Positions 2,726-49,873 of a stretch of 50,267 nt of DNA are shown in pieces. The position numbers were made by a program, and so were the translations under genes. The stretch is from IMG/VR virus record IMGVR_UViG_3300025769_000185, positions 1 to 50,267 of that record; one strand, written 5' to 3'. The first letter of the stretch is position 1; each line of letters begins with the position of its first letter. The notes below the pieces were generated by a model, which was not told the DNA's origin, made no database searches, and worked only from the letters and a program-made list of their open reading frames with translations. This DNA is from a virus.

Positions 2726-3640
2726 ATGGCTATTTCACGCGCCCAACTCCTCAAGGAGCTATTGCCCGGACTTAACGCACTTTTCGGTATGGAATATGCG
2801 AAGTACGGCGAAGAGCACAAAGAGATTTTTGAATCTGAAAGCTCTGACCGTTCCTTTGAGGAAGAAGTTAAGTTGTCTGGTTTTGGTGCAGCCCCCGTCA
2901 AAGACGAAGGCTCTGCCATTGATTACGACAACGCACAAGAAGCGTTTACCGCTCGTTACACGCACGAAACCATTGCTATGGGCTTTAGTGTTACCGAGGA
3001 AGCGATTGAAGATAACTTGTATGACTCACTGTCATCTCGTTATACGAAAGCTCTTGCTCGCGCTATGGCTTACACCAAGCAGGTTAAAGCTGCCGCTATC
3101 CTGAACCAAGCGTTCACGGGTGCAGGTAACCCAACCTACGGTGACGGCAAAGTGTTGTGTGCAACTGACCACCCGCTAGTTTCTGGCGGAACTAACTCAA
3201 ACCGTCCTGCTGTTGCTGCTGACCTTAACGAGACTTCTTTAGAAGCCGCCGTTATCCAGCTTGCTGGTTGGACTGATGAGCGTGGTCTGTTGATCGCTGC
3301 CAAGCCCCGCAAATTGGTCATCCCACCTGCGCTGCAATTCGTTGCAACTCGCTTGTTGGATACCGAGGGTCGAGTTGGCACGGCTGACAACGATCTGAAC
3401 GCACTCCGTAACAACGGCTCAATCCCAGAAGGCTACACGGTTAACCATTATCTGACTGACACAGATGCTTGGTTCTTGACCACCGATGTACCTAATGGCC
3501 TGAAGCACTTTGTTCGTACCCCAATGTCTACCTCTATGGATGCAGACTTTGATACGGGCAACAGCCGCTACAAGGCTCGTGAGCGTTACTCGTTTGGTGT
3601 ATCTGATCCCCTCGGGATCTTCGGTTCACCCGGCGCATAA
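2726..3640 (+). CDS. major capsid protein (Mu gpT-like)
   Basis: A 304-aa protein with the typical order of Mu gpT-type major head subunits. A helical N-arm (LLKELLPGLNALFGMEY) is followed by a conserved 'YTHETIAMGFSVTEEAIEDNLYD' region, a helix of Tyr/Thr/Lys-rich contacts, then 'DGKVLCATDHPL' and a late 'LVIPPALQFVATRLL'. The C-terminal 'DADFDTGNSRYKARERYSFGVSDPLGIFG' closes the fold as in this family. It should form the icosahedral shell. A strong GGAG lies upstream of the ATG. The gene is immediately followed by a rho-independent terminator, which makes it the last gene of the head transcript. No prohead protease is recognised in this window. Confidence 0.85.
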   Translation: MAISRAQLLKELLPGLNALFGMEYAKYGEEHKEIFESESSDRSFEEEVKLSGFGAAPVKDEGSAIDYDNAQEAFTARYTHETIAMGFSVTEEAIEDNLYDSLSSRYTKALARAMAYTKQVKAAAILNQAFTGAGNPTYGDGKVLCATDHPLVSGGTNSNRPAVAADLNETSLEAAVIQLAGWTDERGLLIAAKPRKLVIPPALQFVATRLLDTEGRVGTADNDLNALRNNGSIPEGYTVNHYLTDTDAWFLTTDVPNGLKHFVRTPMSTSMDADFDTGNSRYKARERYSFGVSDPLGIFGSPGA

Positions 3641-3657
3641 GCTACGGTGCTTGATAA

Positions 3658-3682
3658 GGGGGGAGCTTCGGCTCCCCTTTTT
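3658..3682 (+). terminator. rho-independent terminator after the major capsid gene
   Basis: The stem GGGGAGC (3660-3666) pairs with GCTCCCC (3671-3677) around a UUCG tetraloop, followed by TTTTT (3678-3682). This is a textbook intrinsic terminator 20 nt after the capsid stop codon. It would end or reduce the head transcript and so uncouple it from the downstream virion genes. Confidence 0.9.
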
Positions 3683-3683
3683 A

Positions 3684-3710
3684 TTGACTTGATGAAAAGT
3701 AGGGTATACT
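3684..3710 (+). promoter_or_regulatory. putative sigma70-like promoter
   Basis: TTGACT at 3684-3689 and TATACT at 3705-3710, separated by 15 nt, lie directly after the capsid terminator. Each hexamer is one mismatch from consensus, but the spacer is 2 nt shorter than optimal. It would restart transcription of the genes from 3804 on, with a start near 3716-3718, that is, inside the structured leader. It implies use of host RNA polymerase for part of the late arm. Confidence 0.5.
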
Positions 3711-3711
3711 T

Positions 3712-3795
3712 TCAGTCATATCGGGAAACAATCCGGTAAATCTGACAGGCCCGACTGACGACATGTAGACAGATTTACTTAAACTCACATGTGAG
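3712..3795 (+). ncRNA. structured leader RNA with pseudoknot potential
   Basis: In the gap between the capsid terminator and the next gene, TCAGT (3712-3716) plus CGGG (3722-3725) can pair with CCCG (3750-3753) plus ACTGA (3754-3758) across a 5-nt bulge. The loop of that stem contains GTAAATCTG (3736-3744), which pairs perfectly (9 bp) with CAGATTTAC (3770-3778) outside it, giving an H-type pseudoknot topology. A further 12-nt palindrome, CTCACATGTGAG (3784-3795), can fold next to the ATG at 3804 and may limit access of ribosomes. These pairings are read directly; simultaneous folding and function are inferred. If transcription starts at about 3717, the outer half of the first stem is lost, so the leader may also act within a read-through transcript. 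Confidence 0.5.
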
Positions 3796-3803
3796 AAAAA
3801 ACG

Positions 3804-4013
3804 ATGGCTAAAACCACTTTTTCTGGCCCCGTCCGTTCGGACAACGGCTACCAAATCCCAGTTGTGACTACCGCAAACCTACCCGCCGCTACTGGCGTTG
3901 TTGCCGGAACCGTATACATGGTTTCTGACAATGGTTCTGGTGACGATGAATACTGCATCGTAATCAGCACTGGCACTGCTTGGGTAACTGCTGTAGGCGC
4001 GGCTCTTAGCTAA
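3804..4013 (+). CDS. small virion protein, head-fibre/decoration-like (69 aa)
   Basis: A short all-beta protein starting 'AKTTFSGPVRSDNGYQIP'. This start resembles small head-fibre or decoration-type proteins of marine phages, in which an N-terminal 'FSGPV' segment anchors to the virion. Gly, Ala, Thr and Val dominate, and there is no membrane segment or catalytic motif. It is the first gene behind the putative promoter and structured leader, and its ribosome site is weak (GTGAG at 3791-3795, partly buried in a palindrome), so translation may be controlled by RNA folding. The virion role is inferred from similarity in memory and from abundance-type regulation (own promoter next to the capsid gene). 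Confidence 0.65.
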   Translation: MAKTTFSGPVRSDNGYQIPVVTTANLPAATGVVAGTVYMVSDNGSGDDEYCIVISTGTAWVTAVGAALS

Positions 4014-4305: not shown

Positions 4306-4632
4306 ATGCGTAGTTACTACAAGAAGTCTCCATGTGCGTCTTTTAAGAGTGGTGGTAGTACCGCTGCTTGGACGCGCAAGGAAGGCAAGAGTGAGTCTGG
4401 CGGACTTAATCAGAAAGGTGTGGACAGCTACAGAAGGGAGAACCCCGGAAGTAAGCTGAAGACCGCTGTAACGACTAAGCCCAGTAAGCTCAAGAAAGGC
4501 TCTAAGGCTGCTAAACGGCGTAAGTCGTTTTGTGCACGTATGAAAGGCATGAAGAAACGTAATACTAGCTCCAAGACGGCGAATGATCCGAATAGCCGTA
4601 TAAACAAGAGCTTACGGAAGTGGAATTGCTGA
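4306..4632 (+). CDS. basic Lys/Ser-rich phage protein (DUF6321-like, 108 aa)
   Basis: A very basic protein. The central and C-terminal part 'SKAAKRRKSFCARMKGMK' followed by 'NDPNSRINKSLRKWNC' matches my memory of the DUF6321 family, found in marine phages and environmental sequences. Three Cys are present (near residues 10 and 73 and at the C-terminus). Its strong positive charge suggests nucleic-acid or capsid-interior binding, but no function is established. It starts 1 nt after the previous stop codon and is directly followed by a GTG start, so it is embedded in a coupled run of genes. Confidence 0.65.
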   Translation: MRSYYKKSPCASFKSGGSTAAWTRKEGKSESGGLNQKGVDSYRRENPGSKLKTAVTTKPSKLKKGSKAAKRRKSFCARMKGMKKRNTSSKTANDPNSRINKSLRKWNC

Positions 4633-48474: not shown

Positions 48475-48632
48475 TAGTGATCCCCTTCCTCACGTTTAAT
48501 GTAATTTGCATCAATTACTTCCCTGAGCCTTCGCTCGAATTCATCGTGCGTCATGTTTAGAAACGCACGATTTGTTTCTTTGTCATAGACTACGGCCCCG
48601 TCTAGGAACCAATGAAGCTCGTCATTAGTCAT
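48474..48632 (-). CDS. small hypothetical protein (52 aa)
   Basis: ATG 48632 overlaps the stop of the VWA protein gene (TAATG style), and its own TAA (48476-48474) overlaps the ATG of the 361-aa gene. Sequence begins 'TNDELHWFLDGAVVYDKETN' and ends with a charged helix 'DEFERRLREVIDANYIKREE'. One short hydrophobic strand, no Cys. Perfect fit between neighbours on both sides makes it very likely real. Function unknown. Confidence 0.75.
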   Translation of the reverse strand: MTNDELHWFLDGAVVYDKETNRAFLNMTHDEFERRLREVIDANYIKREEGDH

Positions 48633-49873
48633 TAGTGGATCTCCGCTGAATCAATGTGTACGACCTTGCCGTTGTCGGGTGTCGCATGTTTGTTGTCGAT
48701 CACACACCACAGGGTTGGGCAGTCCCATGTACCCCAGTCACCGAACAGGTAGCCATCGGTGAGGATGATCGTTGCTTGTGGCTTGATCTGATGTTGCTGC
48801 ATGTACTCGACCACGCACTCAACATCGGTACCGCCGCCACCTTTGGGTTTGGTAGATTGCGCCAGCGTGTCTAGCTCGTGGGACTCGTATGACTCGTCAC
48901 CCACAACCTCGTGACCCCAGTACAGTAAGCGAACCTTGTCGGGCTTGACCGTAGTGCAGATCGACTGAACTTCTGACAGGAACACAGCCAGATCAGCGTC
49001 GGGTATAGACCCTGACGTATCAACAGCAATCACAAGCTCATCGACTTTCTCGCTGATACCGCTGGGCAGATAGACACCGGCACCAAGGTATCGGCGGTTG
49101 GGACGTTTCCATGTGGAGTAGTCGTTGCCAGTACAGGTTGTCTGAATGAACTCGCGCAGTACCTCACGCCAATCGACCTGCGGTTGCATAAGCTCATCGA
49201 ACCGGCGGTCACCCGTAATACCTGACTTAGCGGCCATCATGCTGCCCTGACGTATCGCTACGTCGATCTCTTTCTCAAGCTCCTTGACCTCATCGTCTGA
49301 CAGCTTATCGGCACCTTCCCAGTCGTGCTCATCGAAACCCTGTGGCTCGTTTGGTTCAGCACCACCGCCGCCACCTTTGGGTGGTTCCTGCGTACCATCA
49401 TCCAATGCCTTGAAGATCACAGCAGTATCCATCCATGACCCATCGGGCTTGCGGAATCGCTCGTCGTACAACCCGATCTGGTCGCCGTTCTCATCGCGGG
49501 GCATAGCGGCGAAGCCATCCTCTCGGTTCTCATCGACCAGCTTGCCGTTGATGTTGTAGTCACACGCCATGTTAGCGGTGTTGTGATTCTTGTCGTGCAA
49601 GTGTTTCCACGTTATCAGGTGCCGGTACATCTTGTGATAGCACTCATGCAGTATCACGAAGCGAAGCTCGGCATCGGTCATGGAATCAACGAATGCTCGA
49701 CCATAAGTCTCGTCACGCCCGTTGGTACATGCAGTCGGTACGTCATCGCTGACAGTCTTGTTGCCCACCATGAGTACACCAGCCAAGGCCATGTACCGTG
49801 GGTGAGCAGTAATATCTACCACTGCTTTGGTGATCCGCTGCTCGGCGGTCAGTTGTTGGTTTAGTGCTAACAT
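48632..49873 (-). CDS. metallopeptidase-like plus VWA domain protein (DUF2201-type)
   Basis: A 413-aa protein with an N-terminal metallopeptidase-like domain holding H76-E-C-Y-H80 (HExxH) and 'ANMACDYNING' near 100-110 as possible third-ligand region. Next come an acidic linker with Gly run (about 165-200) and a C-terminal VWA domain with MIDAS motif D285-T-S-G-S289, T349 (GGTD) and D373 (ILTDG). This layout fits DUF2201-type proteins, usually encoded next to MoxR-family AAA+ ATPases, as is the case here. Such pairs act as chaperone-like systems that assemble or activate other complexes. A strong AAGGAGG precedes the ATG. Confidence 0.85.
   Translation of the reverse strand: MLALNQQLTAEQRITKAVVDITAHPRYMALAGVLMVGNKTVSDDVPTACTNGRDETYGRAFVDSMTDAELRFVILHECYHKMYRHLITWKHLHDKNHNTANMACDYNINGKLVDENREDGFAAMPRDENGDQIGLYDERFRKPDGSWMDTAVIFKALDDGTQEPPKGGGGGAEPNEPQGFDEHDWEGADKLSDDEVKELEKEIDVAIRQGSMMAAKSGITGDRRFDELMQPQVDWREVLREFIQTTCTGNDYSTWKRPNRRYLGAGVYLPSGISEKVDELVIAVDTSGSIPDADLAVFLSEVQSICTTVKPDKVRLLYWGHEVVGDESYESHELDTLAQSTKPKGGGGTDVECVVEYMQQHQIKPQATIILTDGYLFGDWGTWDCPTLWCVIDNKHATPDNGKVVHIDSAEIH

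Follow-up and report, generated by a model that had tools for sequence, protein, structure and literature searches.

Translational riboswitches of the preQ1-II and SAM-II type are H-type pseudoknots that hide the ribosome-binding site, and in phage T4 the leader pseudoknot of gene 32 is a translational operator, i.e. the gene product binds its own leader. The described RNA closest to the one reported here is Mu-gpT-DE (RF03012), which occupies the same site, between a Mu-gpT-type capsid gene and a cement gene whose product starts with MANTTFxGPV, in sister phages with 84-92% identical capsid proteins. We found no described function for Mu-gpT-DE; extra covariation in this RNA has been reported with CaCoFold, the main text giving no details (PMC7657543).

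The stretch of DNA analysed here, referred to as the window, is one virus record of 50,267 bases. Behind its capsid gene lies a leader of about 75 nt, which comparison with homologues shows to be a conserved pseudoknotted RNA of five helices, two of which (P1 and P3) are pseudoknots. This structured RNA is new to Rfam 15 and recurs in more than 200 other viral sequences from aquatic phages, including an isolated SAR11 (Pelagibacter) phage. In the best explanation, to which we assign a probability of about 0.72, it would act in cis at the 5' end of the cement-gene mRNA to control translation.

The locus and the anatomy of the leader

The relevant features of the window are the following.

2726..3640, plus strand: major capsid protein gene (Mu-gpT-like); Pfam PF10124 Mu-like_gpT and PF25209 Phage_capsid_4 above cut-off, PHROG 371 major head protein
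3656..3683, plus strand: intrinsic terminator 3' of the capsid gene; stem 3656-3679 and T tail
3684..3710, plus strand: promoter; TTGACT (3684-3689), 15 nt, TATACT (3705-3710)
3721..3725, plus strand: P1 5' strand UCGGG; pairs with 3750-3754, a pairing that homologues keep with other letters
3735..3744, plus strand: P2 5' strand GGUAAAUCUG; two-sided changes at all 10 pairs
3746..3748, plus strand: inner stem 5' strand CAG; middle pair A-U, C-G or U-A across relatives
3750..3754, plus strand: P1 3' strand CCCGA, within the inner-stem loop; first pseudoknot
3755..3757, plus strand: inner stem 3' strand CUG; pairs with 3746-3748
3761..3766, plus strand: P3 5' strand ACAUGU, within the P2 loop; pairs with 3787-3792
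3770..3779, plus strand: P2 3' strand CAGAUUUACU; pairs with 3735-3744
3784..3786, plus strand: P4 5' strand CUC; pairs with 3793-3795; CUU in many homologues
3787..3792, plus strand: P3 3' strand ACAUGU, forming the P4 loop; second pseudoknot
3793..3796, plus strand: P4 3' strand GAG which, with the following A, is the Shine-Dalgarno sequence, 8 nt before the ATG; most homologues have GAGG or AAGG here
3804..4013, plus strand: controlled gene for a 69-aa protein with N-terminus MAKTTFSGPVRSDNGY; putative capsid cement protein

In this topology, P2 encloses a short inner stem whose loop pairs with the extreme 5' end (P1), and a further segment of the P2 loop pairs, as P3, with the loop of hairpin P4, the 3' strand of which is the Shine-Dalgarno sequence; P3 abuts this sequence and P4 contains it. 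Covariation in homologues strongly supports the central point of the initial annotation, namely that the leader can form a pseudoknot and is likely to act in translation. The 9-bp stem described there (3736-3744 with 3770-3778) is present; it reaches 10 bp when a G-U pair (3735-3779) is included, and it corresponds to the conserved P2. The other stem proposed there is only half conserved: CGGG at 3722-3725 with CCCG at 3750-3753 is part of P1, but the remaining half, CAGUC (located at 3713-3717, not at 3712-3716) with GACUG at 3753-3757, uses G3753 twice, and close relatives have CAGCC, CATTC or unrelated letters there. A palindrome noted at 3784-3795 exists but is actually the P4 hairpin plus the 3' strand of P3, a helix that had been overlooked.

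By itself, the sequence of the window is unconvincing as evidence, because 8 of 300 shuffles of one 120-nt stretch also contain a perfect helix of at least 9 bp, and z is -1.8 for the nested fold; it is the homologues that convince. In the window, P3 is a weak palindrome (duplex -4.6 kcal/mol) and the Shine-Dalgarno sequence GAGA is weaker than in relatives; for P4, a 6-nt loop that is fully paired above a 3-bp stem is sterically plausible, if unproven. The covariance models of Rfam 15 gave no meaningful match to the window, even at E values up to 10, and no riboswitch class. Matches to RAGATH-32 and SorY (18.8 and 20.3 bits) are far under the cut-off and due to chance, and a hammerhead reading of CUGACGA was rejected by eye, the required GAAA strand being missing from most homologues.

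The spacer between the capsid gene and the 69-aa gene (3641-3803) begins with the strong terminator that had been noted at 3656-3679, which we confirm and which has counterparts in most homologous spacers. Of the sigma70-like promoter that follows, the position of the -10 box is conserved in homologues, but the 15-nt spacing is atypical, and a promoter scan of the window with 16-18 nt spacing did not pick up the TTGACT-15 nt-TATACT arrangement. A -10 box matching at five or more of six positions is found in 78 of 125 homologous upstream regions (16 in shuffles); in 55 of these 78 it ends 9 nt before P1, as compared with 10 nt in the window. Judged from this distance, the fold probably lies at the 5' end of the mRNA, with transcription beginning at most a few nucleotides from P1. 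In the window, transcription is likely to start at about 3717-3719, which is just upstream of P1 and not, as first suggested, inside the first stem. Since the 3713-3717 arm is not conserved, the associated idea of a read-through and a promoter-initiated form, split by the start site and folding differently, falls away.

The promoter also bears on whether the element is a separate small RNA, which had been considered initially, or a 3' element of the capsid mRNA. Having a promoter of its own would suit a small RNA, as would the fact that Rfam lists the sister Mu-gpT-DE as gene/sRNA and names it a downstream element. However, a terminator is located upstream of the element and none between it and the 69-aa gene, the Shine-Dalgarno sequence of this gene lies within P4, and the leader stays with the cement gene even where genes have been inserted after the capsid gene, all of which leaves the small-RNA reading unsupported and highly improbable.

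The 69-aa product of the controlled gene is probably a capsid cement protein; a Foldseek search with its short model gave no significant structural match, so this designation derives from its N-terminus and position. The proteins encoded behind 231 leaders of the window's type start with MANTTFSGPVxSxNGF or a variant thereof and then diverge fully, with lengths of 50-240 aa, and the window's protein shares only the N-terminus MAxTTFSGPV with the longer members. For a 157-aa homologue (L207), the model is a beta sandwich of moderate confidence (pLDDT 65), and the solved structures that it resembles most are the trimeric, Ig-like cement (decoration) proteins of KHP40 (7dou, Z 10.5), KHP30 (7dn2, Z 10.0), Pam1 (7eel, Z 9.1) and, at rank 5, GP4 (8h89, Z 8.4). 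In phage DSL-LC04, the gene in the same position is annotated as encoding a cement protein; PDB sequence searches found no relevant capsid or cement protein relatives. The GP4 cement protein is present in 540 copies, a number equal to that of the capsid protein (PMC9698820).

Other genes in the window include one for a GroES-like co-chaperonin (208-585, Pfam Cpn10), its order before the capsid gene being kept in related isolates, and one for a DUF6321 protein (4306-4632), DUF6321 being a C-terminal module common to several PHROG families of larger proteins. Near the record end, the minus strand carries an unusual cargo, i.e. a DUF2201 pair with a metallopeptidase-like and a VWA-like domain (48632-49873).

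Homologues and covariation

Several hundred viral contigs were gathered in searches that used short core patterns and two proteins, i.e. the capsid protein and the 69-aa product. Downstream of related capsid genes, the spacer carries one of two leader types, A (that of the window) or B (Mu-gpT-DE, RF03012). Among 80 loci fetched by the capsid protein alone, a simple finder assigned 26 to type A and 34 to type B, with the remaining 19 loci and one truncated record including divergent type A leaders (such as L053, L057, L058, L059, L065 and L079) as well as loci with inserted genes. The leader type alternates among relatives with capsid proteins 84-96% identical to that of the window, and many relatives in the range of 84-92% identity have Mu-gpT-DE instead of the window's type. 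In the divergent leader L079, the P3 segment CCUCA seems, by eye, to pair with the Shine-Dalgarno sequence UGAGG itself. In L022, L028, L034 and L035, inserted genes separate the capsid terminator from the cement leader, in some cases with an HNH-like Cys motif (by eye).

Two isolates have a type A leader, i.e. Pelagibacter phage HTVC023P (L579), with a model match at E 3.8e-6, and phage DSL-LC04 (L580), where the helices were seen by inspection; Roseobacter phage CRP-902 carries Mu-gpT-DE. At the DNA level, the leader itself had no match in the phage collection; its occurrences in isolates were found only by inspecting the surroundings of the capsid gene. Our covariance model R1 missed L008 and L580, in which the helices were found by eye or complementarity. 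A scan of genome contigs produced 29 matches to a 17-nt core, which is about chance level, the fold being seen only in L420 and L424, both metagenome-assembled contigs. In Planktothrix phage Pag-Yong1 (L578, 3904-4007), a different strong hairpin, GACCCGGGG/CCCCGGGTC, precedes the cement gene and is possibly a third leader type.

The anatomy was derived from 235 distinct type A candidate leaders. How far their letters can change is illustrated by L083, which encodes a protein 94% identical to that of the window, although its leader differs from that of the window in every helix (P3 is UUACGA/UCGUAA). A column test of P2, P3 and P4 was done on 28 divergent members, aligned by MAFFT without regard to structure: paired cells made up 97.4%, two-sided changes occurred in 16 of 19 pairs as opposed to 7.6 in shuffled data (for P3, in five of six pairs), and the covariation score was 0.497, compared with 0.187 in shuffled and at most 0.17 in slid data. 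Because the linker to P2 varies (5-10 nt), the 5' strand of P1 was left unaligned by MAFFT, so that P1 was assessed not by column counts but by searching for complementarity, with shuffles as the control. Across the 235 leaders, a full Watson-Crick partner for the five letters in the inner-stem loop was present upstream in 94% (11.5% when shuffled), and a full Watson-Crick partner for P3 in 98% (2% when shuffled).

Since searching by pattern predetermines some letters, the fair set consists of the 54 sequences retrieved solely through protein searches. P1 is kept in 52 of these 54, its variants being UCGGG/CCCGA, CCGGG/CCCGG, CUGAG/CUCAG, CUAGG/CCUAG, CCCGA/UCGGG and CCGGA/UCCGG, and P3 appears in nine paired variants, one of them a G-U form, which include ACAUGU/ACAUGU, ACAUGC/GCAUGU, ACAUAC/GUAUGU, UUACGA/UCGUAA, AUAUGC/GCAUAU, UUGCAU/AUGCAA, GCAUAC/GUAUGC and ACAAGC/GCUUGU. 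The inner stem is CAG/CUG in most members and CCG/CGG or CUG/CAG in divergent ones, while P4 changes jointly with the Shine-Dalgarno sequence (CUC/GAG, CUU/AAG) and is broken in a few homologues. In most members P3 ends 11-12 nt before the start codon, directly beside RAGG. Three unpaired elements stay constant while the helices vary, namely an A that precedes the inner stem, a GACG that follows it and a GA that precedes the 3' strand of P2. The alignment of homologues that the initial annotation had put forward as a check yields covarying pairs; the finding it named as refuting (absence of covariation or of the complementary segments) did not arise.

Within P2, G-U cells outnumber A-C cells by 152 to 6, so that the fold is one made by the sense RNA. 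This excess also bears on a DNA-level signal, for instance a recombination arm for the swapping of cement domains with the repeats acting as DNA hairpins. The combination of a constant leader and N-terminus with hypervariable C-terminal parts, and the switching of leader types among close relatives, do resemble module exchange. Yet a bias of G-U over A-C on the transcribed sense is at odds with such a signal, and the helices covary, whereas in a homology arm the letters themselves would be kept; we consider this reading very improbable.

Proposed masking of the ribosome-binding site

These comparisons give good support to translation control in which the leader masks the ribosome-binding site. 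In the mechanism we propose, transcription would start just before P1 and the RNA would fold at once; with P3 and P4 formed, the ribosome-binding site would be masked and translation of the cement protein low or delayed, and opening of the P3/P4 contact would free the site. A trans-acting signal, i.e. a small molecule or a protein from either phage or host, is likely to shift this balance, because the unpaired letters are invariant. Such control would serve to adjust when, and in what quantity, a protein is made that is transcribed apart from the capsid protein but that, in related phages, is incorporated at one copy per capsid subunit.

The same ribosome-binding site appears to be masked by other pairs in sister leaders, namely by the outer stem and a start-codon loop in Mu-gpT-DE and by CCUCA/UGAGG in L079. 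As leader types cover the same site by different pairs, the simplest reading is selection for masking initiation at the cement gene. The structure could instead hold the site open or protect the mRNA. Such protection would be that of a 5'-terminal stabiliser against RNase E or RppH-type decay of an abundant late mRNA, with the Shine-Dalgarno overlap being incidental, and it would agree with P1 lying a few nucleotides from the probable 5' end and with the controlled gene being a late structural gene. Contact of P3 and P4 with the Shine-Dalgarno sequence is not needed for protection, however, and yet it covaries and has been rebuilt by different pairings in Mu-gpT-DE and L079, which makes a mere stabiliser unlikely.

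Translational masking might also, as a special case that we put forward only tentatively, operate as a true riboswitch or protein-responsive leader. The invariant unpaired letters near the inner stem, which remain constant while all helices vary and are partly common to Mu-gpT-DE (which keeps GAC and GA at matching places), suggest a binding pocket whose occupant, a small molecule or a protein of phage or host, would switch P3/P4. A possible competing state comes from the 5' strand of P1, which in 67 of 100 leaders (8 in shuffles) can alternatively pair with a nearby segment that directly precedes P2 (3721-3736 in the window; e.g. ACCGA/UCGGU in L207); the resulting local hairpin may be a second state. 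Against this special case, the local competitor is absent from the most distant members, no Rfam riboswitch matches, and the cement protein is hypervariable outside its N-terminus, which argues against binding by its variable part.

Comparison with Mu-gpT-DE and other leader RNAs

Like Mu-gpT-DE, the window's leader lies 3' of a Mu gpT-type capsid gene (PF10124), and both RNAs have an outer stem ending in CUG/CAG, a single A and an inner stem starting with CAG/CUG; in the window, this inner stem (3746-3748/3755-3757) is found one nucleotide inside the outer stem. Also common to both are GAC and GA at matching places, a contact with the Shine-Dalgarno sequence and a promoter just upstream. At the level of models, the two are distinct: the window does not match the covariance model of RF03012 even at E values up to 10 and does not reach its gathering cut-off of 49 bits, whereas sister (type B) loci match it at 62-78 bits, and model R1 does not match Mu-gpT-DE loci. 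They differ, too, in how the pairs are arranged. The outer stem of Mu-gpT-DE holds the Shine-Dalgarno sequence (CCUG/CAGG in Rfam's structure), whereas in the window the 3' strand of P2 (3770-3779) precedes the Shine-Dalgarno sequence, which is paired in P4. An extra loop of Mu-gpT-DE appears to pair with the start codon, whereas the window's leader has a longer upstream outer stem and two added pseudoknots (P1 and P3). From position and core, we infer common descent of the two.

Mu-gpT-DE has a conserved loop, (U)AGCCA, whose letters are complementary to those around the start codon, AUGGCU(A). Counting from the last base of the start codon, GG-C goes with loop GCC in 37 of 37 cases and GG-G with loop CCC in 74 of 75, counts that are inflated by relatedness, and in L451 AUGAGC goes with loop GCUCA. 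This complementarity is seen at L013:5974-6026, L042, L045, L451 and other Mu-gpT-DE loci. This suggests that Mu-gpT-DE has a pseudoknot onto the start codon, for which we do not claim priority because of the extra covariation reported with CaCoFold (PMC7657543).

Since the window's leader and Mu-gpT-DE take each other's place and appear to mask one and the same site in different ways, Mu-gpT-DE gains a concrete, testable role. The leader is tied to one stoichiometric step of capsid building, and together the two RNAs offer two independent folds for seeking a common signal. It is conceivable, albeit speculative, that they are two topologies of one phage-specific switch superfamily which senses a common late-infection signal, e.g. 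a metabolite or free capsid protein, and thereupon allows the cement protein to be translated. If true, this superfamily would represent a new class of regulatory RNA that responds to a ligand or a protein, features two chained loop-loop pseudoknots and is widespread among aquatic phages infecting several groups of hosts.

With riboswitches of the preQ1-II and SAM-II type, the window's leader has in common that a short 5' leader pseudoknot probably occludes the Shine-Dalgarno sequence, but it matches them neither in sequence nor by model and has two chained loop contacts instead of one H-type knot. As compared with the T4 gene 32 leader, the product of the gene is mostly hypervariable here, and the leader is known from sequence comparison alone; what would unite the two is that a pseudoknot in a phage mRNA leader controls a structural or abundant protein.
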